Made by a program: the position numbers and the translations under genes. A stretch of 64,000 bases of DNA from Erysipelotrichaceae bacterium (lineage in GTDB: Bacteria; Bacillota_I; Bacilli_A; RFN20; CAG-826), in contig SVBB01000003.1 in the NCBI GenBank assembly GCA_015059105.1, positions 62,001 to 126,000 of the forward strand. The letters run 5' to 3'. Position 1 is the stretch's first letter; each line of letters starts with the position of its first letter. Shown piece by piece: positions 15,301 through 40,552 of the stretch. Below the pieces are notes generated by a model. It saw only the letters and a list, made by a program, of their open reading frames with translations, did no database searches and had not been told where the DNA came from.

Positions 15301-16287
15301 ATGAATGAAAAAGGTTTGGTAATTATCTATAATAACAATGTTGAAGTGAAATTAATTGATAATAATGTCTGGATGACTCAAGATCAATTGGTTTCACTAT
15401 ATCAATCAAGCAAATCGAACATATCTGAACACATCAAACATATCTTTGAAGATGGTGAATTAGAAGAAAATTCAGTTGTTCGGAATTTCCGAATAACTGC
15501 TTCAGACAGTAAAATTTATAATGTTAAACATTATAACCTTGATATGATTATCGCTATTGGTTATAGAGTTAGAAGTAATATTGGAACTAATTTTAGAAAA
15601 TGGGCAACTGAAACACTCAAAGAATATATGACTAAAGGCTTTGCCCTTAATGATAACCTTCTTAAAGAAGCTGGTGGTGGCCGTTATTTTAAAGAATTAT
15701 TAGCGAGAATCCGTGATATTAGAAGCAGCGAAAAGGTGTTTTGGAGACAAGTTCTCGAAATCTTTGCTACTAGCTCTGATTATGATCCTAAATCCGAAGT
15801 TGCACTTAAGTTCTTTTCAACAGTTCAAAACAAGATGCATTGGGCTGCTCATGGACATACTGCTGCAGAAATCATCAAAGAAAGAGCGGATGCTTCAAAA
15901 GACTTTATGGGTTTAAAATCTTTTAATGGTGATTATCCTTTGTTGGAAGATGCAGTAGTGGCTAAAAACTATCTATCTAAAGATGAGATGGATATATTAA
16001 ATAGAATTGTTTCTTTATACCTTGATTTTGCAGAATTACAAGCACTTGAAGAACACGTGATGACGATGAATGACTGGATTAAAGAATTAGATTATTTCTT
16101 AACCATGACGAGAAAAGACATCTTAAATGGACCGGGATTAGTTTCCCATCAAGATGCACTAGAACATGCGAGAAAAGAATACGATGCATTTAGAAATAGA
16201 CTTTTTGTTAATCCTACGGAAAATGAAAAAGAAATGCTTCTTCATTTTAATGAACTCCTATTAATTGAGAAAAAGGATAACAAATAA
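15301..16287 (+). CDS. RhuM-family protein, cassette 1
   Basis: A 328-residue protein of the RhuM family, named after a Salmonella pathogenicity-island gene and still of unknown function. Residues about 20-110 form an N-terminal winged-helix-like, antirepressor-type part (VWMTQDQLVSLYQSSKSNIS, then YNLDMIIAIGYRVRS). The C-terminal helical part has FFSTVQNKMHWAAHGHTAAE, RADASKDFMGL and KNYLSKDEMDILNRIVSLYLD. A strong AAAGGAGG site precedes the ATG. The next gene, an XRE-Nudix fusion, starts one base after its stop. A paralogue sits at 34661-35656 with an equivalent XRE neighbour. No catalytic motif is evident. Confidence 0.85.
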   Translation: MNEKGLVIIYNNNVEVKLIDNNVWMTQDQLVSLYQSSKSNISEHIKHIFEDGELEENSVVRNFRITASDSKIYNVKHYNLDMIIAIGYRVRSNIGTNFRKWATETLKEYMTKGFALNDNLLKEAGGGRYFKELLARIRDIRSSEKVFWRQVLEIFATSSDYDPKSEVALKFFSTVQNKMHWAAHGHTAAEIIKERADASKDFMGLKSFNGDYPLLEDAVVAKNYLSKDEMDILNRIVSLYLDFAELQALEEHVMTMNDWIKELDYFLTMTRKDILNGPGLVSHQDALEHARKEYDAFRNRLFVNPTENEKEMLLHFNELLLIEKKDNK

Positions 16288-16288
16288 T

Positions 16289-16966
16289 ATGAGTGTTCAT
16301 TTCGGAAAAAAGATTAAAGAAATTCGTAAGAAGAATAATCTTACTCAATTAGAATTTGCCCAAATCTTTGGTTATAAAGATAAATCTATGATTGCCCATA
16401 TTGAAAAGGGCGAAACAGAAATGAGCAATGACAAGATTGCATTATTAATTGATAAATTTAACATTGATGCAAACGAGCTTTTTCTAGAAAAGAAGATTTA
16501 TGATGATAAAAATTATGTTAAAAGAATAAGAAAATATTTAGGTGACCAAAAAATCATTCTTAACTGCGCGGGTGGAATAGTTGAAAAAGATGGGAAGATT
16601 CTTTTCCAACGACGAACAGATAATGATAAATGGGGACTTCCTGGCGGACTATTGGAACTTAATGAGACATATTTAGAAGCTGCTATTAGGGAAATAAAAG
16701 AAGAGACAGGACTAGATGTTAGACCAAAATATTTTCTTGGTATATTCCATAACCACAATATGGTGTGGGGCAACGGTGATAAAGCGCACACCATTGGAGC
16801 GTATTATGTGTTTGAAATAGAGGGAGGGGACCTAAAAATAGATGAAGAGTCATCTGAACTTAAATTCTGTTCTAAGGAAGAAGTACCACCTCTTTTTGCT
16901 CCTGACCACATAAAAGCAGTAGAAGCATATTACAAAGGCATCAAAAACACTATTTTCGAAGCATAG
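16289..16966 (+). CDS. XRE helix-turn-helix fused to a Nudix hydrolase
   Basis: ATG 16289 is preferred to an in-frame TTG at 16265; AAAGGAT lies about 11 bases upstream. The 225-residue protein has an XRE domain at about 5-65 (KIKEIRKKNNLTQLEFAQIF, SMIAHIEKGE). A Nudix domain follows at about 82-215 with a complete Nudix box, GLLELNE...REIKEETGL, matching Gx5Ex7REUXEEXGU, so hydrolysis of a nucleoside-diphosphate-linked substrate is expected. The protein could bind the cassette promoter and sense or cleave a nucleotide. It pairs with RhuM here; the second cassette has an XRE-peptidase instead. The 3' end faces the convergent DUF368 gene. Confidence 0.85.
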   Translation: MSVHFGKKIKEIRKKNNLTQLEFAQIFGYKDKSMIAHIEKGETEMSNDKIALLIDKFNIDANELFLEKKIYDDKNYVKRIRKYLGDQKIILNCAGGIVEKDGKILFQRRTDNDKWGLPGGLLELNETYLEAAIREIKEETGLDVRPKYFLGIFHNHNMVWGNGDKAHTIGAYYVFEIEGGDLKIDEESSELKFCSKEEVPPLFAPDHIKAVEAYYKGIKNTIFEA

Positions 16967-29913: not shown

Positions 29914-30375
29914 ATGTTTTATCACGCTAACAAAGTTAAATTCTTAGAAGGTGTTGTTGTTGAATTGACATTTCAAGATGGCAAGATTATCCAATATGAT
30001 TTGTCTCAACTATTTTCAAAATACCCTCAGTTTAAAGAACTTTTATTAAATAGAGCGTTATTTGAAAATGGCAAATTAGATCCTGGAGGATATGGGGTTA
30101 TTTGGAATGATCAATTAGATATTGATGCTACTGCCATTTACTATGATGGTGTTCTTGTTGGGCAAATTGATGTTCCAATGAATCAAAGTTTGGGCGTCTT
30201 ATTAGCGGAGACTAGAGAATCATTAGGTATCACTCAAACTGAACTATCTAAGATGTCTCATATTGATTAAGGAGATATATCGAGAATAGAAAGAGGAATT
30301 GGGAATCCAACCATTGCTAAAATAGAAAGATTATTCAATGCTCTTGGCAAAAGGATATCAATTAAAATTGAATAA
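29914..30375 (+). pseudogene. DUF2442-XRE antitoxin-like gene interrupted by one TAA
   Basis: The frame from ATG 29914 encodes a DUF2442 domain (VVVELTFQDGKIIQYDLSQL ... AIYYDGV) and the start of an XRE domain (LLAETRESLGITQTELSKMS HID). It stops at TAA 30268-30270. The same frame then continues GDISRIERGIGNPTIAKIER to a TAA at 30373, which is exactly the second half of an XRE domain. A Gln codon (CAA) is expected at the stop, so a single C-to-T change explains it. The shorter 118-residue product lacks the recognition helix. It is either a recent pseudogene or a sequencing error. No partner toxin gene is next to it. Confidence 0.8.
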
Positions 30376-30383
30376 ACAATTAA

Positions 30384-30425: not shown

Positions 30426-31217
30426 TTATGAACCAGTTGATTCATAACGTCTCGCGCACAATGTCCAAATAAATGTAGCAAGCGTAAAGAAAGCAATTGC
30501 CGCCCCTATGATAGCTAAACTCAATAAATAAGGGTTGTAACTTCCATAAAGTAATGTATCAACAGGTAGGGAAATGAATAAACCAAATGGAAATATGAAA
30601 ATCAAAATAAAGCGGATTGCATATGGGTAAATAGCAATCGGATATTTTGCATATATAGTGAAGTTATAAATGATTTGAAGTAGTGGTCCACTGCGTTTGA
30701 AGATAAACGCTAAAGATGAAATAGCGATTTTAAATGAAGTGATAATTATTGCACCAAAGATCGCACCAATACTTAAAACGAGTATTGCACCAAAAGAAAC
30801 TGCTACCTGTAAATTCAATCCACAGATGACAATCATTGTGATGCCAACAATAACCTCACCAAATCCATCTGGTTGGAATGTTTCCGCAAACATTTGGAAA
30901 ATAACTGGAACAGGACGTAAGAAGTGACGGTCCATATCTCCTAGTTGAACACGGCGGAAAGCTACTAACCAAAATTCATCACTGAACAAATGGTCAATTG
31001 CTATAGGAAGCATTGAAAATCCGTAAAAAAAGCCGATTTCTGCAGGAGTATAGCCTTTTAGTGAAGGAATTGCTTGCAAAATAAAGTAGATAGAGCAAAG
31101 CGAACAAGCGTTAGAAATCAAGAAGGCAAGAATAGAAATAATCGAGTCCCTTTTGTATTCCAATCTGGACATCATGCTACGTTTGATACAGGTGAAATAA
31201 AGTTTGAAATATCTCAT
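30426..31217 (-). CDS. ABC-2-type permease (COG3694-like)
   Basis: A 263-residue membrane protein with about six transmembrane segments, starting MRYFKLYFTCIKRSMMSRLE. It resembles the second permease of the ABC-2 exporters whose first permease is DUF990. GGGAGG overlaps the end of the preceding gene, and the ATG is two bases past that gene's stop. Together with 31219-32058 and 32036-33055 it forms a complete exporter; the substrate is not known. Confidence 0.85.
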   Translation of the reverse strand: MRYFKLYFTCIKRSMMSRLEYKRDSIISILAFLISNACSLCSIYFILQAIPSLKGYTPAEIGFFYGFSMLPIAIDHLFSDEFWLVAFRRVQLGDMDRHFLRPVPVIFQMFAETFQPDGFGEVIVGITMIVICGLNLQVAVSFGAILVLSIGAIFGAIIITSFKIAISSLAFIFKRSGPLLQIIYNFTIYAKYPIAIYPYAIRFILIFIFPFGLFISLPVDTLLYGSYNPYLLSLAIIGAAIAFFTLATFIWTLCARRYESTGS

Positions 31218-31218
31218 A

Positions 31219-32058
31219 TTATCCTCCCTGCACCGTGACGAGTTTTATCGCGTGATTGAAAAGTAGTTTGCCAAGTAGTTCCAATAAAATTAGCCAAACA
31301 AAAGATATTAGAAGCACTTTAGCACATTCCAAATAACTATATTTCATCATCAATATTAATACTGGGTTTTGACTCATGCCTGCGAAGGGCATATAAGAAA
31401 CAATTTCACGGAAGACATTTGGAAAGAAAGCGATAGGTAATAACGTACCAGACAAGAATGAAATCACTGTTGTCTTCAATGAATTAAGTCCCCACGCTGC
31501 GGTGGTATAGAAACACAATATCCCAAATAAATAAGAAATAGCCCCATTTAATAAACAAGCGAGAACACTAGCGATCAAGAATAAACCGAAATGGGCAATG
31601 AAATCCCAAACAGATGGTACAGGTAAAAACCCAATTCCGATGAGTGTTCCTAAACCTGCTGCATATAGAGGGATACCAAACACAATTGACATCATTAAAA
31701 ACGCCCCAATGTTTGATGCGATGAACTTACCTCGATATGAAATGGGCTTGATTAAAAAATTACCGATTGTTCCTTGTCTAATGTCTCGATTGATATACCA
31801 CATAGTATCGTCGTTAAAAGTGACGAATCCAAATATCGTTGTTAATACAACATAGGAAATCATTTCTTTATATGTAAATCCATTAATAGAAGCATTAATC
31901 CCACCCTCACTGCTTTGATAAACAGCGAGCCATAAGAAAACTAGACAAGCAACTTCTGCAACTGTCACAAGTGCCCAAGTCAGTATATTAAAACGATACG
32001 CCATCATATCAATGGCTGAGGCACGAACAAACGGCTTATATTTTCTTAGCCATCTCAT
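31219..32058 (-). CDS. ABC-2-type permease, DUF990 family (COG4587-like)
   Basis: A 279-residue membrane protein with six predicted segments. The N-terminal RWLRKYKPFVRASAIDMMAY and the interior DDTMWYINRDIRQGTIGNFL, then LIKPISYRGKF, match the DUF990 permeases. AGGAGG lies six bases before the ATG, inside the end of the ATPase gene, with a 23-bp overlap. It probably pairs with the next permease as a heterodimer. Confidence 0.87.
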   Translation of the reverse strand: MRWLRKYKPFVRASAIDMMAYRFNILTWALVTVAEVACLVFLWLAVYQSSEGGINASINGFTYKEMISYVVLTTIFGFVTFNDDTMWYINRDIRQGTIGNFLIKPISYRGKFIASNIGAFLMMSIVFGIPLYAAGLGTLIGIGFLPVPSVWDFIAHFGLFLIASVLACLLNGAISYLFGILCFYTTAAWGLNSLKTTVISFLSGTLLPIAFFPNVFREIVSYMPFAGMSQNPVLILMMKYSYLECAKVLLISFVWLILLELLGKLLFNHAIKLVTVQGG

Positions 32059-33055
32059 GTTCTTCCTCCTGTTGAGAAAGGATTTGTTTTACGACATCTT
32101 CAATGGAAATGTCTGCAATTTTCATATCAATTGCTTGATACTTAGAAAAAGCGTATTGAACTACATGCTCAAGGACAACCTTATCAGCATCAAACTTGAG
32201 CATGACTTTATCTTTATTATTTTCATCTAATACCATTGTCACGTCATCAGAAAATGGTTTAACTTTTTCTGGATCAACGCTTGGTGGAACGGTCAACGTT
32301 AAAGTTTTGATATTACCAAAACGACGTTTGATATCTTTTAAAGGACCATCGTAAATAATCTTTCCTTTTTCAATCATGATAATGCGGGAACAGAGGTTTT
32401 CAATGTCTGCCATATCGTGAGTGGTGAGAACAACAGTGGTGTGATATTTTGCATTTAAGGCGTGGATGGCGGTGCGTATTTTTTCTTTAACAAGAACATC
32501 CATGCCGATAGTGGGCTCATCAAGGAAGAGAATCTTTGGATTATGTAGCATTGATGCAGCTAAGTCCGCTCTCATTCTTTGGCCTAAGGAAAGGGTGCGG
32601 ACTGGTTGAGTCATAAATTCATCAATACCGAGTACAGATGATAAAAAATTCATTCTTTCTTCATAATCTTCATCACTAACTTGATATATTTCTTTAAGAA
32701 CTTTAAAAGATTCCACAAGTGGAATGTCCCACCATAGTTGGCTCTTTTGTCCAAAAACAACACCGATATCTTTAGCGACAACTCTACGTTTGAGATAGGG
32801 TTCTTTGTCACCAATGAAAACTTTTCCAGATGTAGGAGTGAGAATTCCACACATCATTTTGATAGTGGTGGATTTACCCGCACCGTTAGAACCGATATAA
32901 CCAACAATCTCTCCTTCAGAAATGTCAAAAGAAACGCCATCGACAGCGCGAATCTCCGTGTATTTACGAGAGAACAATGTGGCTATCATACCAATAAGAC
33001 CTTTACCTCTTATCGGTTTACGAAATATTTTGGTGAGTTCTTGAACTTTTATCAT
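32036..33055 (-). CDS. ABC transporter ATP-binding protein (COG4586-like)
   Basis: ATG 33055 is preferred to an in-frame GTG at 33064 because AGGTAG lies eight bases before it. The 339-residue ATPase has Walker A GSNGAGKSTTIKMMCGIL, a Q-loop GVVFGQKSQLWWD, the signature LSLGQRMRADLAASML, Walker B ILFLDEPTIGMD and the H-loop VVLTTHDMADIE. The GQKSQLWWD Q-loop is typical of this exporter family. It is the first gene of the three-gene operon. An extended -10 (TGTTATAAT) is seen on the minus strand near 33085-33095. Confidence 0.92.
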   Translation of the reverse strand: MIKVQELTKIFRKPIRGKGLIGMIATLFSRKYTEIRAVDGVSFDISEGEIVGYIGSNGAGKSTTIKMMCGILTPTSGKVFIGDKEPYLKRRVVAKDIGVVFGQKSQLWWDIPLVESFKVLKEIYQVSDEDYEERMNFLSSVLGIDEFMTQPVRTLSLGQRMRADLAASMLHNPKILFLDEPTIGMDVLVKEKIRTAIHALNAKYHTTVVLTTHDMADIENLCSRIIMIEKGKIIYDGPLKDIKRRFGNIKTLTLTVPPSVDPEKVKPFSDDVTMVLDENNKDKVMLKFDADKVVLEHVVQYAFSKYQAIDMKIADISIEDVVKQILSQQEEEHEMAKKI

Positions 33056-33138
33056 AATTATCACTACCTATGGTGTTGTTTCATATTATAACATATTCAA
33101 TGTGTTTGACATTATGTCATCTATAACGAATAGATTTT

Positions 33139-33163: not shown

Positions 33164-34309
33164 ATGTTTAACAAAAAATCACAACAAAGAAATAGATGCC
33201 AATTATATGGTGGGCAAGGGAAGAAAGGCTATGATTGGTGGTGGCATTCTTTTACAGCCTATAACGCAAAAACAGGTGAGCCACGTCCATTCTTTTTAGA
33301 ATTCTTTTTAATCGATCCAAAAAGAGGTGGAGAAGAACCAGTATTTGGTCAATTAAAAGAAAATCAAGAAGCCGGTATCAAACCATCATACCTTATGATC
33401 AAAATCGGCTACTGGGGGAAAGGTGCTAAGCAACTCCATCGTTTCTTTGGTTGGAAAAAGATAAAAGTTAATTATAAAGCACCATTTTCAATAAGCGCGG
33501 ATGATTGTTATTTAGATGAGTATCAAAGTAGAGGAAATGTCTCCATTTCTAAAGAAGAATCAGAGAAACATCCTGAATATATGTGCGATTATGGTTCCAT
33601 TTCATGGGATTTAAAAATAGAAAAAGATATCGCTTTTAATGTTGGTTATGGAGCGGGGTGGCTATTTAGACATCTTCAACTTTTTGAAATGTTTTGGCAC
33701 GCTGAAGGAATGAAATCTAGATTCTCAGGTACAATATTCGCGGACGGTGAAGAATACACTATTAGAAAAGAAGATAGCTATGGCTATTCCGATAAGAACT
33801 GGGGCAAAGATTTTACATCTCCTTGGGTTTGGTTATCTAGCAACAATATGGTAAGTAATATCACTAATAAAAAACTAGAAAACAGTGTCTTTGATATCGG
33901 TGGTGGCCGTCCTAAAGTTGGATTTATTGCCTTAAAAGGCAAATTACTAAGTGCTTTCTACTATGAAGGCAAATGCTATGAATTTAATTTCTCTAAATTC
34001 TGGACAAATACTAGAACAAAATTTGATTGTTATGAAACAGATACACATATAGTGTGGCATGTCGAACAGAAGACTTGGAATAATAAAATGATTACTGATA
34101 TAACTTGTTTAAAAGAGGATATGCTTCTTGTTAATTATGAAGCCCCAAACGGAAAGAAATTACATAACCGTTTATTTAATGGTGGTAATGGCGTGGGACG
34201 TATTCAACTATTTCATAAAGGCAAACTTATCGATGATATTAATGTCTATAATGTTGGTTGTGAATATGGGGAATATGGACTACCGACCATCTCTTATAAA
34301 AAACGATAA
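33164..34309 (+). CDS. Tocopherol cyclase-like domain protein, second copy
   Basis: A 381-residue soluble protein. The N-terminal part is rich in aromatic residues (GYDWWWHSFTAYNAKTGEPR), and the middle has SYGYSDKNWGKDF followed by WVWLSSNNM, the same core motif as the protein at 1557-2348 and as the tocopherol-cyclase-like Pfam family. It ends with a series of beta strands. CGGGAG lies nine bases upstream. It is transcribed alone, divergent from the ABC exporter, and ends at a terminator at 34335. Function in bacteria is unknown. Confidence 0.65.
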   Translation: MFNKKSQQRNRCQLYGGQGKKGYDWWWHSFTAYNAKTGEPRPFFLEFFLIDPKRGGEEPVFGQLKENQEAGIKPSYLMIKIGYWGKGAKQLHRFFGWKKIKVNYKAPFSISADDCYLDEYQSRGNVSISKEESEKHPEYMCDYGSISWDLKIEKDIAFNVGYGAGWLFRHLQLFEMFWHAEGMKSRFSGTIFADGEEYTIRKEDSYGYSDKNWGKDFTSPWVWLSSNNMVSNITNKKLENSVFDIGGGRPKVGFIALKGKLLSAFYYEGKCYEFNFSKFWTNTRTKFDCYETDTHIVWHVEQKTWNNKMITDITCLKEDMLLVNYEAPNGKKLHNRLFNGGNGVGRIQLFHKGKLIDDINVYNVGCEYGEYGLPTISYKKR

Positions 34310-34334: not shown

Positions 34335-34364
34335 GTCGTCCAAGAATAACGGGCGGCTTTTTTT
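34335..34364 (+). terminator. Rho-independent terminator after the second tocopherol-cyclase-like gene
   Basis: GTCGTCC (34335-34341) pairs with GGGCGGC (34351-34357, two G-T pairs), followed by seven T. Confidence 0.85.
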
Positions 34365-34472
34365 GTCGTCGTCGGAAGCCCTTATATACACGTATATAAC
34401 TCGTTCTGGCTAACCCCGGTCAGTCCACGTCGCACGATATGTGATGAAATGAGCGAAAATAGCCGTCGTCAG

Positions 34473-34500
34473 AATCGTGTCCCAGATGGCTGTTTTGAGA
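34473..34500 (+). repeat. 28-bp direct repeat, left copy
   Basis: Begins AATCGTGTCCCAGATGGCT and ends TTTTGAGA. It matches 36407-36434 at 27 of 28 positions. The two copies bracket the second RhuM cassette. Confidence 0.9.
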
Positions 34501-34561
34501 GAGTGATTTCCGTCCTTCTCACGATTATCAGTGGCGTCATGACTCATAGAAGAAGCAAGGC

Positions 34562-34582
34562 CGTCCGAAAGGGCGTTTTTTT
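34562..34582 (+). terminator. GNRA-loop intrinsic terminator
   Basis: CGTCC (34562-34566) pairs with GGGCG (34571-34575) around GAAA, followed by TTTTTTT. It lies upstream of the RhuM promoter and ends an unannotated transcript. Confidence 0.75.
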
Positions 34583-34605
34583 GTGGAAATAAGCATTGAT
34601 ATCAA

Positions 34606-34635
34606 TTGATTAAAAATCACTTTTTATGATATAAT
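34606..34635 (+). promoter_or_regulatory. Promoter of the second RhuM cassette with a conserved spacer
   Basis: TTGATT and TATAAT are 18 bases apart. The spacer starts AAAAATCACTTTTT, identical over 14 bases to the spacer in the first RhuM promoter (15245-15273), although the surrounding sequence differs. Confidence 0.6.
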
Positions 34636-34660
34636 ATATTTATATTAAGGAGGTATAAAA

Positions 34661-35656
34661 ATGCCTACTAAAAACGAAATATTAATATACAATTTGCCTG
34701 ATGGAACTTCAAATGTAGAAGTTTATTTAACTGAAGACGATTTATGGATGAATCAAGCTTCTTTGGCAAAATTATTTCAATCATCAACTCAAAACATTAC
34801 AATGCATATCCGTCATATCTATGAAGAAGGTGAGCTTAGCGAAACTTTAACATGTAAGTCAAACTTACAAGTTCAAAATGAGGGTGGTAGAACCGTTAAA
34901 AGAACTATTAAGTTGTATAACCTAAAAATGATTATTGCTATCGGGTTTCGCGTTAAAAGCTCTACTGCAACTGCTTTTAGAGTGTGGGCAAATAATATCA
35001 TTACTGAATATATGATTAAAGGGTATTCAATGGATGATAAGCGTTTAGAAGACCCCGAGAAATTCGGTAGAGATTATTTTGATGAATTATATCTTAGAAT
35101 TAGAGCAATTCGTGCCTCCGAGAAAAGGTTCTATCAAAAGGTATTAGATATTTACTCAACGAGTATTGACTATAACAAAAACGACGAACAATCAATTGAG
35201 TTTTTCAAAACAGTTCAAAACAAACTTCATTATGCAATTTCTGGAGAAACTGCTGCGGAACTCATTTATCATCGCGCTGACGCGACCAAAGACAATATGG
35301 GTTTAACATCTTGGAGAGGAGAACATGTTCAAAAAGCCGATGTGACTATTGCAAAGAATTATCTTTCTAAAGAAGAAATTGATTCTTTGAATCAGATTGT
35401 GAACATGTATTTGGACCACGCTGAAAGAATGGCCAAGTCAAACATTCCTATGCATATGAACGATTGGATTGAAGCGCTTGATGCATTCTTAAAATTTGAA
35501 AGAGCAGACATTCTTATTGGGGCGGGTAAAATATCTCATGCTCTTGCAGAACAAAAAGCCCATAAAGAATATGAAAAATATGATACAAATAGACAAATAA
35601 CAATGTCTGCTGATTTAGACAAAGAATTGCTTGATGTGTTAAACAAAAAGAAATAA
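34661..35656 (+). CDS. RhuM-family protein, cassette 2
   Basis: A 331-residue paralogue of the protein at 15301-16287. Shared blocks in the same order: LWMNQASLAKLFQSS, EEGEL, YNLKMIIAIGFRVKS, FFKTVQNKLHYAISGETAAE, RADATKDNMGL, and AKNYLSKEEIDSLNQIVNMYLD. AAGGAGG lies eight bases before the ATG. The XRE-peptidase gene starts two bases after the stop. The conserved N-terminal part suggests DNA binding, as in antirepressors; the role of the helical C-terminal part is unknown. Together with its neighbour it lies between 28-bp direct repeats. Confidence 0.85.
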   Translation: MPTKNEILIYNLPDGTSNVEVYLTEDDLWMNQASLAKLFQSSTQNITMHIRHIYEEGELSETLTCKSNLQVQNEGGRTVKRTIKLYNLKMIIAIGFRVKSSTATAFRVWANNIITEYMIKGYSMDDKRLEDPEKFGRDYFDELYLRIRAIRASEKRFYQKVLDIYSTSIDYNKNDEQSIEFFKTVQNKLHYAISGETAAELIYHRADATKDNMGLTSWRGEHVQKADVTIAKNYLSKEEIDSLNQIVNMYLDHAERMAKSNIPMHMNDWIEALDAFLKFERADILIGAGKISHALAEQKAHKEYEKYDTNRQITMSADLDKELLDVLNKKK

Positions 35657-35658
35657 TT

Positions 35659-36393
35659 ATGGATAAAAAAGAACTTGGTGCAAATATAAGATCCACAAGA
35701 AAAGCAAAAGGATTATCCCAAAACCAATTAGCGGAGCTTATGGGATATAAAGATCACTCTACTCTTGCAAAGGTGGAGACTGGTGTAAATGATATTACTG
35801 TTGAAACTCTTTATAAATATGCAGATAAGTTAGAAATTGATGTTCAAACTCTTTTATCTATCAAATCCGAATTAGATATCTTTAATGATTTTTGTGAAGA
35901 AAACAAACTAGATATCTTTTTATCAACAAAGATGCCTAAGGGATATGAGAAATCGAACGGAACATTTGATATTACAAAGAAATCCTTATTTTACAATGTC
36001 AGTTATTTGAAAGAACTTCCATATTATGAAAGAATCTTTTATCTATTCCATGAATTAAGACACGCTGATCAATATTTTAATCCGCAAAAATATAGTGAAG
36101 AAATAAAACTTAGCAGTAGATACTCTATTATGTTTGATGGCACATGTTCTAAACTTATCAACAACAATTGGAAAGAATGCAAACTAAACGGAAAAGAAGA
36201 ATATTACATTAATTTATACTTAAATCAACCTTATGAAATAGACGCTAATCAATTTGCATATCAAGAAACTAAAAAGATTGTTGGTAAATCAAAAGAGTTA
36301 GATAAATTAATTGATTTTTGGACACCTAAAGAAACATTATCGTTTGAAGAAATTAAAGATATCTATAAGCAAATTGATAAGCTTTGTGAGTGA
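35659..36393 (+). CDS. XRE helix-turn-helix with ImmA/IrrE-like zinc peptidase domain
   Basis: A 244-residue protein. Residues about 6-65 are an XRE domain (NIRSTRKAKGLSQNQLAELM, GYKDHSTLAKVETG). The C-terminal half has the zinc-binding HELRH in RIFYLFHELRHADQYF near residue 134, with downstream acidic residues, as in ImmA/IrrE peptidases that cleave XRE repressors. It starts two bases after the RhuM gene. In cassette 1 the equivalent gene carries a Nudix domain in place of the peptidase. It may cleave a repressor, or itself, to switch the cassette on; this is inferred. Confidence 0.8.
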   Translation: MDKKELGANIRSTRKAKGLSQNQLAELMGYKDHSTLAKVETGVNDITVETLYKYADKLEIDVQTLLSIKSELDIFNDFCEENKLDIFLSTKMPKGYEKSNGTFDITKKSLFYNVSYLKELPYYERIFYLFHELRHADQYFNPQKYSEEIKLSSRYSIMFDGTCSKLINNNWKECKLNGKEEYYINLYLNQPYEIDANQFAYQETKKIVGKSKELDKLIDFWTPKETLSFEEIKDIYKQIDKLCE

Positions 36394-36406
36394 ATAGCAC
36401 TGTTGA

Positions 36407-36434
36407 AATCGTGTCCCAGATGGCTTTTTTGAGA
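36407..36434 (+). repeat. 28-bp direct repeat, right copy
   Basis: 27 of 28 bases match 34473-34500; the only change is G to T after AGATGGCT. It lies 14 bases after the XRE-peptidase stop codon, so repeat to repeat is 1,934 bp. Confidence 0.9.
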
Positions 36435-36517
36435 AAAACAATTTTTGAAAACAAGTGGCACATCTGTGGCACTATATAAAATATAATGATTACGTTAAAT
36501 AAAGCGAGGAACTAATT

Positions 36518-38101
36518 ATGCCAAACAAAGTAGAAGTAAAAGTATATCCACCATTAACGGAAGAAGAAAAAGAAGCGATTATCGCGAGACATAGAGAACT
36601 CGTCGATAAGCTCAATAAACTTCTTCCTCCAGGACAGAAAGTTTCTTTTGATGAGAATCTTAAAGATCGCCTCAATAATCCAAAAGAAGTCGCTGTTTAC
36701 CGCATCGGTCAAGAAGCAAAGGCGATTAAAGCAGAGCAAGAAAAAATCTATAAAGACATGGTTGATAAATACGGCAAGCCTACAGGAAACAATAAAAATC
36801 CGTTTGACCGCAATGTCTCCACTTTCTTTAGAACAGATAACACTAAAGATGCGCAAGATCATAATGAAAAGGTCTATCAAGACTACCTTCATTATCCAAA
36901 TAAACTCGCCTATGTCCGTTATAAGGATGTGATGAAGATCAATCCTCAAGATATCTTAGACTGCAAAGGCGACAAACTAAAACTCGCGGAATATTATCAG
37001 AAGAACTACCGCGCGATTAAAGATGCCTTTGAATACGGTAACGCCTTCAAATATGTCGATATGACAGCTGGGATGAAAAACGCTAAAAACTCTATCGAAG
37101 AACTCACTAATTTAATCGGTGGTTTAGATAAACAATATACTGAAATCGCTTCCTCAATCGATTATTTCGCATTCCCAGAAATCGATGGTCCACAAGCTCA
37201 AATCTTAATGCTCAAATGTGGGGACTTCATAAGCCAAGAACCAAACAATAAGACTTATATGACGATGGTGCAAAATAAACTCATCGAAGGAAAAGAAGAC
37301 ATTTTCACTGTCTTTGAAAACATGAAGAAAAAAGGTGCAGATTTCTCCAAAGGAGGAATCATGGCCTATAAGCCAATTAAGAAAGATAATTATAACGGCT
37401 ATGAACAAGAAATAGCGTTAAGAGATTTCTTCCCTGTTGCTCTAGGTGATGTCGATGGTTCATTTGATAATAACCTCATCGGTCATGAACAAGAAAATGT
37501 CAAATATATCTTAAAACCAAGAACACCAGATGAAATCAAACGCATCCAACTCATCTGCTTTGATGCCTCGTATCAATATGCGAATGAATGGAGAAAAAGA
37601 TTTACTCAAAAGACTAATCTCACGTCAATTGATCCAAAAAGATGTGAAGATAGCTTAAAAGCGAGCTGGTTCTCTAGATGGTTTGGTAGAAATTCTGCCC
37701 AATACGATTACTTGATGAAAGCATACAAGGAATTCAATGATCCTCGTCATAAAGATTATTTAAACGAAGATAAACTTAGAGAAGCTGCGGTCAATTATCG
37801 TACGAGAAAAGCAGGACAAGGCTATACTGGTCGTGGTAGTTCCGTCGACGATAGAAGAATGAAATTCGCGGATGACATCATCGCGACTTGCGACCAATGC
37901 AAAGAAGAGAAAAACGCTATCTTTGCAGAAATCGATAGTGAACTCCTCCATGGTTATCCACCACACAAAGAACCGGCGATTGAAAACCCTAATGTTGTCG
38001 AGGAAAAAGCAAACGATAATAAGGTAAATAAAAAAGAAATAGTTAAAGAAAAGAACATTGAAGAAGTTGAAAAAAACGACAACGATATCGTCTTAAAATA
38101 A
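36518..38101 (+). CDS. Unrecognised 527-residue soluble protein
   Basis: No family recognised. The product has no signal peptide or transmembrane segment, is highly charged, and is rich in helix-forming stretches. The N-terminus (PPLTEEEKEAIIARHRELVD) and the middle (NSIEELTNLIGGLDKQYTEI) could be coiled coils. A Cys-x-x-Cys is at CDQC near residue 465, and the last 45 residues are a Lys/Glu/Asn-rich tail that is probably disordered. It is monocistronic, starting 84 bases after the right direct repeat, with GCGAGGA before the ATG and an intrinsic terminator after it. Its place beside a mobile-looking cassette suggests it may be accessory. Confidence 0.75.
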   Translation: MPNKVEVKVYPPLTEEEKEAIIARHRELVDKLNKLLPPGQKVSFDENLKDRLNNPKEVAVYRIGQEAKAIKAEQEKIYKDMVDKYGKPTGNNKNPFDRNVSTFFRTDNTKDAQDHNEKVYQDYLHYPNKLAYVRYKDVMKINPQDILDCKGDKLKLAEYYQKNYRAIKDAFEYGNAFKYVDMTAGMKNAKNSIEELTNLIGGLDKQYTEIASSIDYFAFPEIDGPQAQILMLKCGDFISQEPNNKTYMTMVQNKLIEGKEDIFTVFENMKKKGADFSKGGIMAYKPIKKDNYNGYEQEIALRDFFPVALGDVDGSFDNNLIGHEQENVKYILKPRTPDEIKRIQLICFDASYQYANEWRKRFTQKTNLTSIDPKRCEDSLKASWFSRWFGRNSAQYDYLMKAYKEFNDPRHKDYLNEDKLREAAVNYRTRKAGQGYTGRGSSVDDRRMKFADDIIATCDQCKEEKNAIFAEIDSELLHGYPPHKEPAIENPNVVEEKANDNKVNKKEIVKEKNIEEVEKNDNDIVLK

Positions 38102-39187: not shown

Positions 39188-39320
39188 ACTGCTAGACAGT
39201 CTGATTTACATACTGAGGACGCGGCTTCCCTATTAAACGTTGTTTGTAGGATGAGGCACAGACCTTCTATTTGAGATATTACGTTAGGGAAGCTAAGCGA
39301 ATTGCCCAAAGTAACTATCC
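39188..39320 (+). ncRNA. Candidate IS110 bridge RNA
   Basis: Between a TATAAT at 39176-39181 and the transposase ribosome site lies a structured non-coding stretch. GCTTCCCTA (39224-39232) pairs with TAGGGAAGC (39085+200, i.e. 39285-39293), extended by AACGT (39236-39240) with ACGTT (39281-39285), and closes a loop of about 40 bases. IS110 transposases use a bridge RNA made from the non-coding end next to the gene, with internal loops that pair with donor and target DNA. Position, size and fold fit; the guide sequences were not assigned. Confidence 0.5.
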
Positions 39321-39337
39321 AAAAGGAGGTTTTATTT

Positions 39338-40552
39338 ATGCCTACTTATTATGTGGGTATTGATGTCAGTAAGTTTAAGCACACCTGCTGCATCATCAAT
39401 GAAAATGGAGAAGTGATCAAAAAGAGTTTTGACTTCTCCAATTCAAAAGAAGGATTTGATTCATTGATAGAAATATTTAAATCAATTGATCAATCTGAAT
39501 CATCATTTCAAATAGTGATGGAAGCAACTGGTCATTATCACGAATGTTTATTTAGATATCTAGTTGCTAATAATTACTTAGCTCAAATTAAAAACCCTGT
39601 CGTGATAGCAAGATTTAAACAATCTGAATATCTCGACAAGGCGAAGACTGATAACCTTGATGCACTTCTTATTGCCCAATATGCATCAAAGCATCCATTC
39701 AGTCCTTCTATGCTTAAATCATACAACATTGAAAGAATTAGGCGAATATCAAGAGCCAAATATTTTCTATATCAGAATAAAGAAAGAACGATTAATCATC
39801 TTCATCGATATTTAGATGAATCTTTTCCAGAATTAATCCCTTTCTTAAGAAAAAGAGGAGATATTAAGCGATATCAAGGTCGTAATTTATTTGATTCTAA
39901 GACTACTTTGTGGCTTCTTGAAAACTTTCCATCCGCGAAGAAATTTTCTAATGCAAGAAGTGAAACAGCGGAGAAACTAAGAAGAATGTCTAAGGGTGCA
40001 TTTAGCTTAATTAAATTCAACGAGCTTAGAAATATTGCTAAAAATTCTATCGGTGTTTCATTCCAAGAAACCGAAGAAATAATAATTCAATTAGTTCAAG
40101 AACTTAGAAACATCCAAGAAAGAAACGACAAACTAGATGAACTTTTAATCCCCTTAATTGACGAAACATCACCTAACTTATTAACTGTTCCTGGGATTGG
40201 TTACCGTTTAGCGGGTCTACTTATTAGTGAAATAGGAGATGCGTCAGAGTTTCCAAGTGCAGATAAAATAATTAAATTTGCAGGACTTGATGTTAGAGTC
40301 TATCAATCTGGAACTGTTGAAAAGCATGGGGCGATTAGAAAAAGAGGATCGCCTTTACTTAGATATGCATTATTCCAAGCAGCGGAGAAAGCTCGTATTC
40401 ATTGCCCTGAAATTGCAGAATTCTATTCAAAGAAAAAGTCTGAGGGAAAACATCCGATTTGTGCCTTAACTCATACAGCAAGAAAGATACTTCGAATTGT
40501 TTGGGCTTTATTAAAAACTGGGCAAAACTATAGTCAATCTATCTCTGATTAG
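39338..40552 (+). CDS. IS110-family transposase (DEDD recombinase)
   Basis: ATG 39338 is chosen because AAGGAGG lies 11 bases before it; the frame is open further upstream only by chance. The 404-residue protein has the DEDD N-terminal domain: YYVGIDVSKFKHTCCII (Asp), VMEATGHYHECLF (Glu), KTDNLDALLIAQY (two Asp). A coiled middle follows, then the Transposase_20 domain with LLTVPGIGYRLAGLLISEIG and the serine-bearing RKRGSPLLRYALF. All catalytic positions are present and the gene is uninterrupted, so it may be active. Confidence 0.95.
   Translation: MPTYYVGIDVSKFKHTCCIINENGEVIKKSFDFSNSKEGFDSLIEIFKSIDQSESSFQIVMEATGHYHECLFRYLVANNYLAQIKNPVVIARFKQSEYLDKAKTDNLDALLIAQYASKHPFSPSMLKSYNIERIRRISRAKYFLYQNKERTINHLHRYLDESFPELIPFLRKRGDIKRYQGRNLFDSKTTLWLLENFPSAKKFSNARSETAEKLRRMSKGAFSLIKFNELRNIAKNSIGVSFQETEEIIIQLVQELRNIQERNDKLDELLIPLIDETSPNLLTVPGIGYRLAGLLISEIGDASEFPSADKIIKFAGLDVRVYQSGTVEKHGAIRKRGSPLLRYALFQAAEKARIHCPEIAEFYSKKKSEGKHPICALTHTARKILRIVWALLKTGQNYSQSISD

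Follow-up and report, generated by a model that had tools for sequence, protein, structure and literature searches.

A RhuM cassette flanked by pieces of an inter-cassette spacer in a probable, partly decayed accessory gene array of an Erysipelotrichaceae bacterium

The 28-bp direct repeats on either side of the second RhuM cassette in a 64-kb stretch of an Erysipelotrichaceae genome (the whole stretch is here called the window) are probably pieces of a long noncoding spacer. Comparison with related bacteria indicates that this spacer lies between exchangeable accessory genes, of which many are of predicted toxin or phage-defence type. Our preferred interpretation, to which we assign a probability of about two-thirds, is that spacer-bounded cassettes are exchanged through homology between spacers with illegitimate closure of the other end, and that a small accessory array, decayed in part, is present in the window: a 381-aa gene, a spacer, the RhuM and XRE-peptidase genes, a spacer remnant and a 527-aa gene. 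The RhuM and XRE-peptidase pair appears from these comparisons to be one removable item of an integron-like array that has no known integron enzyme or sites.

The initial annotation had reported two 28-bp repeats, at 34473-34500 and 36407-36434, identical at 27 of 28 bases and 1,934 bp apart. Our analysis returned the same coordinates and the same match, with a single mismatch and both copies on the forward strand. The pair is genuine and far beyond chance: the exact motif had two matches in the 64-kb window and none in 100 shuffles, and the flank-versus-flank repeat score was 25, with a maximum of 16 among 1,000 Markov shuffles. Each copy is part of a longer homology, the left within 34367-34503 and the right within 36386-36434. 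The search elsewhere in the same genome found only these two exact copies, plus a third match with two mismatches in an apparently unrelated region, and an ungapped scan of the order also gave matches in this genome only. That apparent uniqueness arose because the 28-mer, which is present twice in the related genome G077, has one base inserted there (GGCTTGTTTTGAGA) and was missed by the ungapped scan. Both G077 copies lie inside spacers, and the motif is not unique to its own genome. The annotation had allowed that the repeat might be a common dispersed element, and this was borne out in part: it is dispersed in related genomes, but as a cassette boundary. An exact scan across genomes gave one match, in an alphaproteobacterium, approximately the chance expectation for 19 bases. 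Viral contigs contained neither the exact repeat nor relatives of RhuM or of the peptidase. The stretch holding the left copy, proposed earlier as a possible small RNA, is indeed structured, as part of the spacer, but searches for tRNA and Rfam families at the repeats and spacer gave no match.

Except for the palindrome, all features of the array are assigned to the forward strand. The preceding cassette is the 381-aa gene (33164-34309), which has a weak match to the tocopherol-cyclase family PF14249. It is followed by the left spacer copy (34367-34503), the 5' part of an inter-cassette spacer, which contains the left repeat and, at 34382-34399, the 18-bp palindrome TTATATACACGTATATAA, present in one copy in this genome. 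A profile built from related genomes matched the A part of the spacer at 34428-34541 by nhmmer, with E=4e-10 in the first round in which the match appeared and about 1e-14 in later rounds. The 3' end of the left spacer is marked by a terminator-like hairpin with a T run (34560-34582), read from the sequence and aligned with the 3' terminator of other spacers. Conservation with other RhuM cassettes begins upstream of RhuM at about 34581-34605, and the promoter and leader region of the operon (34583-34660) has nucleotide matches to loci L022, L024 and L026. As the annotation stated, the repeats enclose a RhuM gene (34661-35656; 331 aa) and an XRE-peptidase gene (35659-36393; 244 aa), with no recombinase between them. 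The right spacer remnant (36386-36434) overlaps the stop of the latter gene. Beyond it are the conserved leader (36454-36517) and coding sequence (36518-38101) of the 527-aa gene, which has no Pfam family and whose homologue is a cassette in an array of genome G083. Relatives in spacer arrays exist for all three units of the window. Elsewhere in the window, a 118-aa ORF at 29914-30377 stops at an in-frame TAA (30268-30270) while a helix-turn-helix-like frame goes on to about 30374, and is probably a gene broken by a nonsense mutation; a 416-aa ORF near the array, at 39302-40552, was judged by eye to be an IS110-like transposase.

The two repeats have different origins within this layout. The left spacer (34367-34503) is 93.5% identical to a G077 spacer (L125:2936-3074), the comparisons with G077 giving 92-93.5%. 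In G249, from another genus, the 381-aa gene and its spacer are continuous, with 89% identity to the window up to 34471, and the left repeat therefore belongs to the spacer that follows the 381-aa cassette. The right copy, which starts within the 3' end of the XRE-peptidase gene, aligns with the G077 spacer over 54 columns (83%) and with the left copy over only 28. It is most simply read as what is left, after decay, of the spacer belonging to the RhuM cassette itself, an assignment based, for so short a piece, on those 54 aligned columns.

A full spacer is about 300-340 bp long, GC-rich and noncoding, and has the order terminator, 18-bp palindrome, about 46 fixed nucleotides, long imperfect hairpin, terminator. 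The hairpin joins part A (131 nt) of the element to part B (100 nt), through complementarity between the 3' portion of A and the 5' portion of B; the upstream terminator, the palindrome TTATATACNNGTATATAA and the constant spacing of about 46 nt make up the 5' extension of fuller copies. RNA folding was strong (z -4.2 and -3.7), with little covariation supporting an RNA structure. Of the 274 genomes of the order, all of them assemblies and mostly drafts, 26 from seven genera had matches to the spacer; in genus g18 the element was present in 18 of 31 genomes. The copies are clustered, roughly 1-3 kb apart, and keep a single orientation even beside genes on the opposite strand. They are also mosaic, B types being independent of the downstream gene, and the gene-spacer junction lies at a different point from one cassette to the next, as it also does when a single gene is compared across genomes. 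A strict crossover in the hairpin loop, in which the A half would stay with the upstream gene and the B half with the downstream one, was rejected on account of this independence. A description of such spacer arrays was not found in the open-access literature. In G005 and G016 (L007 and L006), which represent other genera, a different conserved noncoding stretch lies downstream of rpsR, around TTGCCTCA.TTGGCTAAAAATGACTT, and is possibly a genus-specific spacer type; in G005 it is followed by HipBA-type genes.

In related genomes the cassettes between spacers include RhuM with XRE-GNAT, ORF6N with XRE, MntA/HepT-like genes, HipBA and a Na/H exchanger, and the presence of the spacer follows that of the arrays across genera. 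The G083 array begins with rpsR and continues with spacer parts, a 234-aa gene, a spacer, ORF6N with XRE, a spacer, RhuM with XRE-GNAT, a spacer, a nucleotidyltransferase with a HepT-like/GNAT gene, a spacer, the homologue of the 527-aa gene and a small gene that, by sequence reading, is Nif11-leader-like. In G082, Na/H exchanger, RhuM with XRE-GNAT, HipBA and ORF6N-like modules have spacers or spacer parts between them. The arrays of G083, G082 and the window share a chromosomal neighbourhood of lysS, rpsF, ssb, rpsR and an ABC transporter gene. Small genes of about 98 aa, whose leader is Nif11-like (ending ..LEAVSGG), are found repeatedly as cassettes at L123, L124, L125 and L172, and are possible sources of peptide natural products.

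Several of these genes are nearly identical in different genera, which points to recent transfer. In G249 and G202, both from other genera, the 381-aa gene lies within spacer arrays and matches the window at 97.6% and 98.4% of DNA positions, respectively; for rpsR of G249 the figure is only about 72%. Of the ABC transporter genes beside the array (30426-33064; L168), one has 96.9% DNA identity to its counterpart in G247, again of another genus, where lysS is at 68%; this gene too appears to have moved between genera.

The sister genome G001, the sole other genome of the genus in the comparison, bears out the proposal that the cassette is gained or lost as a unit. There the 381-aa gene is directly followed by the 527-aa gene and the RhuM cassette is absent, homology to the window ending at 34342 and restarting at 36454; RhuM relatives elsewhere stand beside other neighbours. 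The annotation had looked to a related genome with one repeat copy and no cassette, but the cassette-free G001 is also free of the repeat, no copy being present in the 124 bp between the two genes. A 60-nt stretch in the same interval is 85% like the promoter of the XRE-HipA (HipBA) cassette of G005, suggesting that different cassettes have probably occupied it. The window's first RhuM cassette (15301-16966), where an XRE-NUDIX gene comes after RhuM, differs from the second in that G001 does have a counterpart of it, located about 18 kb away from the empty site.

The cargo itself is modular. The RhuM protein matches PF13310 and the PDC-S05 models (PADLOC), and a role of RhuM as a toxin domain has been proposed on neighbourhood evidence (PMC3710099). 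What sets the RhuM proteins of this order apart from the known PDC-S05/RhuM family is their recurrent pairing with an XRE protein whose effector domain is exchanged between genomes. Relatives with 75-82% protein identity occur in other genera, and in their XRE partners the first 67 or so residues are conserved while the C-terminal part differs: it is peptidase-like in the window, and elsewhere a GNAT domain, a NUDIX domain or a 202-aa domain of unknown kind. We interpret the pair, a defence-candidate or toxin-like RhuM protein with an XRE regulator, as a probable module of defence or toxin-antitoxin type. The XRE-peptidase joins an XRE helix-turn-helix part to a C-terminal HExxH metallopeptidase-like domain, and the HExxH and downstream glutamate motif looked for in ImmA/IrrE-like metallopeptidases is present; it had no match to a Pfam peptidase family, and its predicted structure (mean pLDDT 84) gave weak matches to small metallopeptidases. 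The peptidase-like domain is also found as a separate ORF, which in most of the cases examined follows an ATPase-like gene, so that its fusion to XRE resembles a product of domain shuffling. The RhuM prediction had a pTM of 0.49, its top match being DdrC at a low TM-score. Direct repeats of the same spacer family flank RhuM cassettes in G083 (95 bp) and G082 (26 bp); those in G065, G098 and G270 have flanking direct repeats of 25 and 32 bp that are unrelated to the spacer. Cassettes of RhuM with XRE-202aa at L071, L074, L075 and L076 (G080, G098, G076 and G270) begin directly after tRNA-like 3' ends, apparently of Met or Thr, and share the sequences of their left (TATGCAGACTACAG) and right (CAACCACA) ends, with unrelated DNA outside; they seem to represent another insertion style of the same module.

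Because the spacers between cassettes keep one orientation, every cassette is flanked by direct repeats. We propose that cassettes would travel between genomes as DNA fragments, that a spacer would offer homology for one crossover, in the window on the left side, and that the other end would be closed by illegitimate or short-homology joining, leaving a truncated spacer such as that on the right. The variable junctions and mosaic spacers favour such an exchange over precise site-specific recombination. By analogy, the exchange would fit homology-facilitated illegitimate recombination during natural transformation, a term that appears in PMC8116780 and PMC3410848. ComEC (PF03772) was found in seven of ten genomes, including genomes of g18 and g48, but a search of G000 and G001 did not detect it, and the case for natural uptake as a route into this lineage is weaker for that.

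The annotation had interpreted the 28-bp repeats as attachment-like sites or insertion scars, and near-identical direct repeats at both ends of a cassette with no recombinase inside would suit attachment sites or a target duplication. We find this highly improbable given that the empty site in G001 has no copy, that the left copy sits in a longer spacer running on without a break from the 381-aa cassette before it, that the right copy, as a remnant, starts within the end of the peptidase gene, and that the 28-mer also occurs within G077 spacers. A tyrosine recombinase encoded elsewhere, for example Xer, might instead insert and excise cassettes precisely at the palindromic spacer. Xer-like proteins occur in nearly all genomes, and both the imperfect palindromic repeats in one orientation between cassettes and the palindrome at a fixed distance from the hairpin would be in keeping with such an enzyme; the differing gene-spacer junctions, the B types unlinked to the downstream gene, the unconserved attC core boxes and the lack of an integron integrase above cut-off (0 of 274 genomes) make it unlikely. 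The spacers could also be functional 3' ends, terminators or small RNAs that serve expression and only travel along, with no role in movement, which would count against the preferred exchange through spacers. Terminators at both ends, strong folding and a position on the same strand as the upstream operon speak for this, but the orientation that is unchanged beside opposite-strand genes, the scant covariation and the tracking of cassette arrays across genera leave it a low probability.

Several known systems resemble the arrays in part. As in integron arrays and CALIN, the arrays have a single orientation, an imperfect palindromic repeat borders every gene, the cargo includes toxin-antitoxin genes and, as in CALIN, no integrase is nearby. 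The spacers are longer, however, with terminators, variable rather than precise cassette junctions and no conserved attC R boxes: among 25 spacers searched with a simple consensus (RYYYAAC...GTTRRRY), GTTRRRY occupied a common position in no more than 8 and RYYYAAC in 1. The integrase search used the TIGR02249 cut-off; complete integrons require this enzyme and CALIN do not. The pdif (XerCD) modules of Acinetobacter carry toxin-antitoxin cargo between short flanking repeats with no recombinase inside (PMC13141974, PMC6449649), as the window module is flanked, but the 28-bp match is a fragment of a longer spacer with no evident 11-6-11 Xer site. A Bacillus-type dif pattern, which may not fit the local dif, found no convincing dif in eight genomes. 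Like the minimal mobile elements of Neisseria (term cited in PMC2649163), G001, G082, G083 and the window have alternative recombinase-free cassettes between conserved genes, with signs of horizontal exchange; here, unlike there, the repeated spacer also gives homology and several cassettes stand in series.

A bolder proposal, which we consider doubtful, is that cassette capture without an integron integrase, at a long palindromic site class of its own, builds toxin and defence arrays around lysS-rpsR in these small, low-GC genomes and passes them from one genus to another. IntegronFinder 2.0 reported one complete integron in Firmicutes, where integrons are extremely rare (PMC9024848). Arrays of defence and toxin-antitoxin cassettes with a palindromic spacer that is not attC would represent integron-like gene shuffling by another route. 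The spacer would serve as a search key for new defence modules, and the swappable effector domain behind RhuM would make the function of RhuM directly testable.
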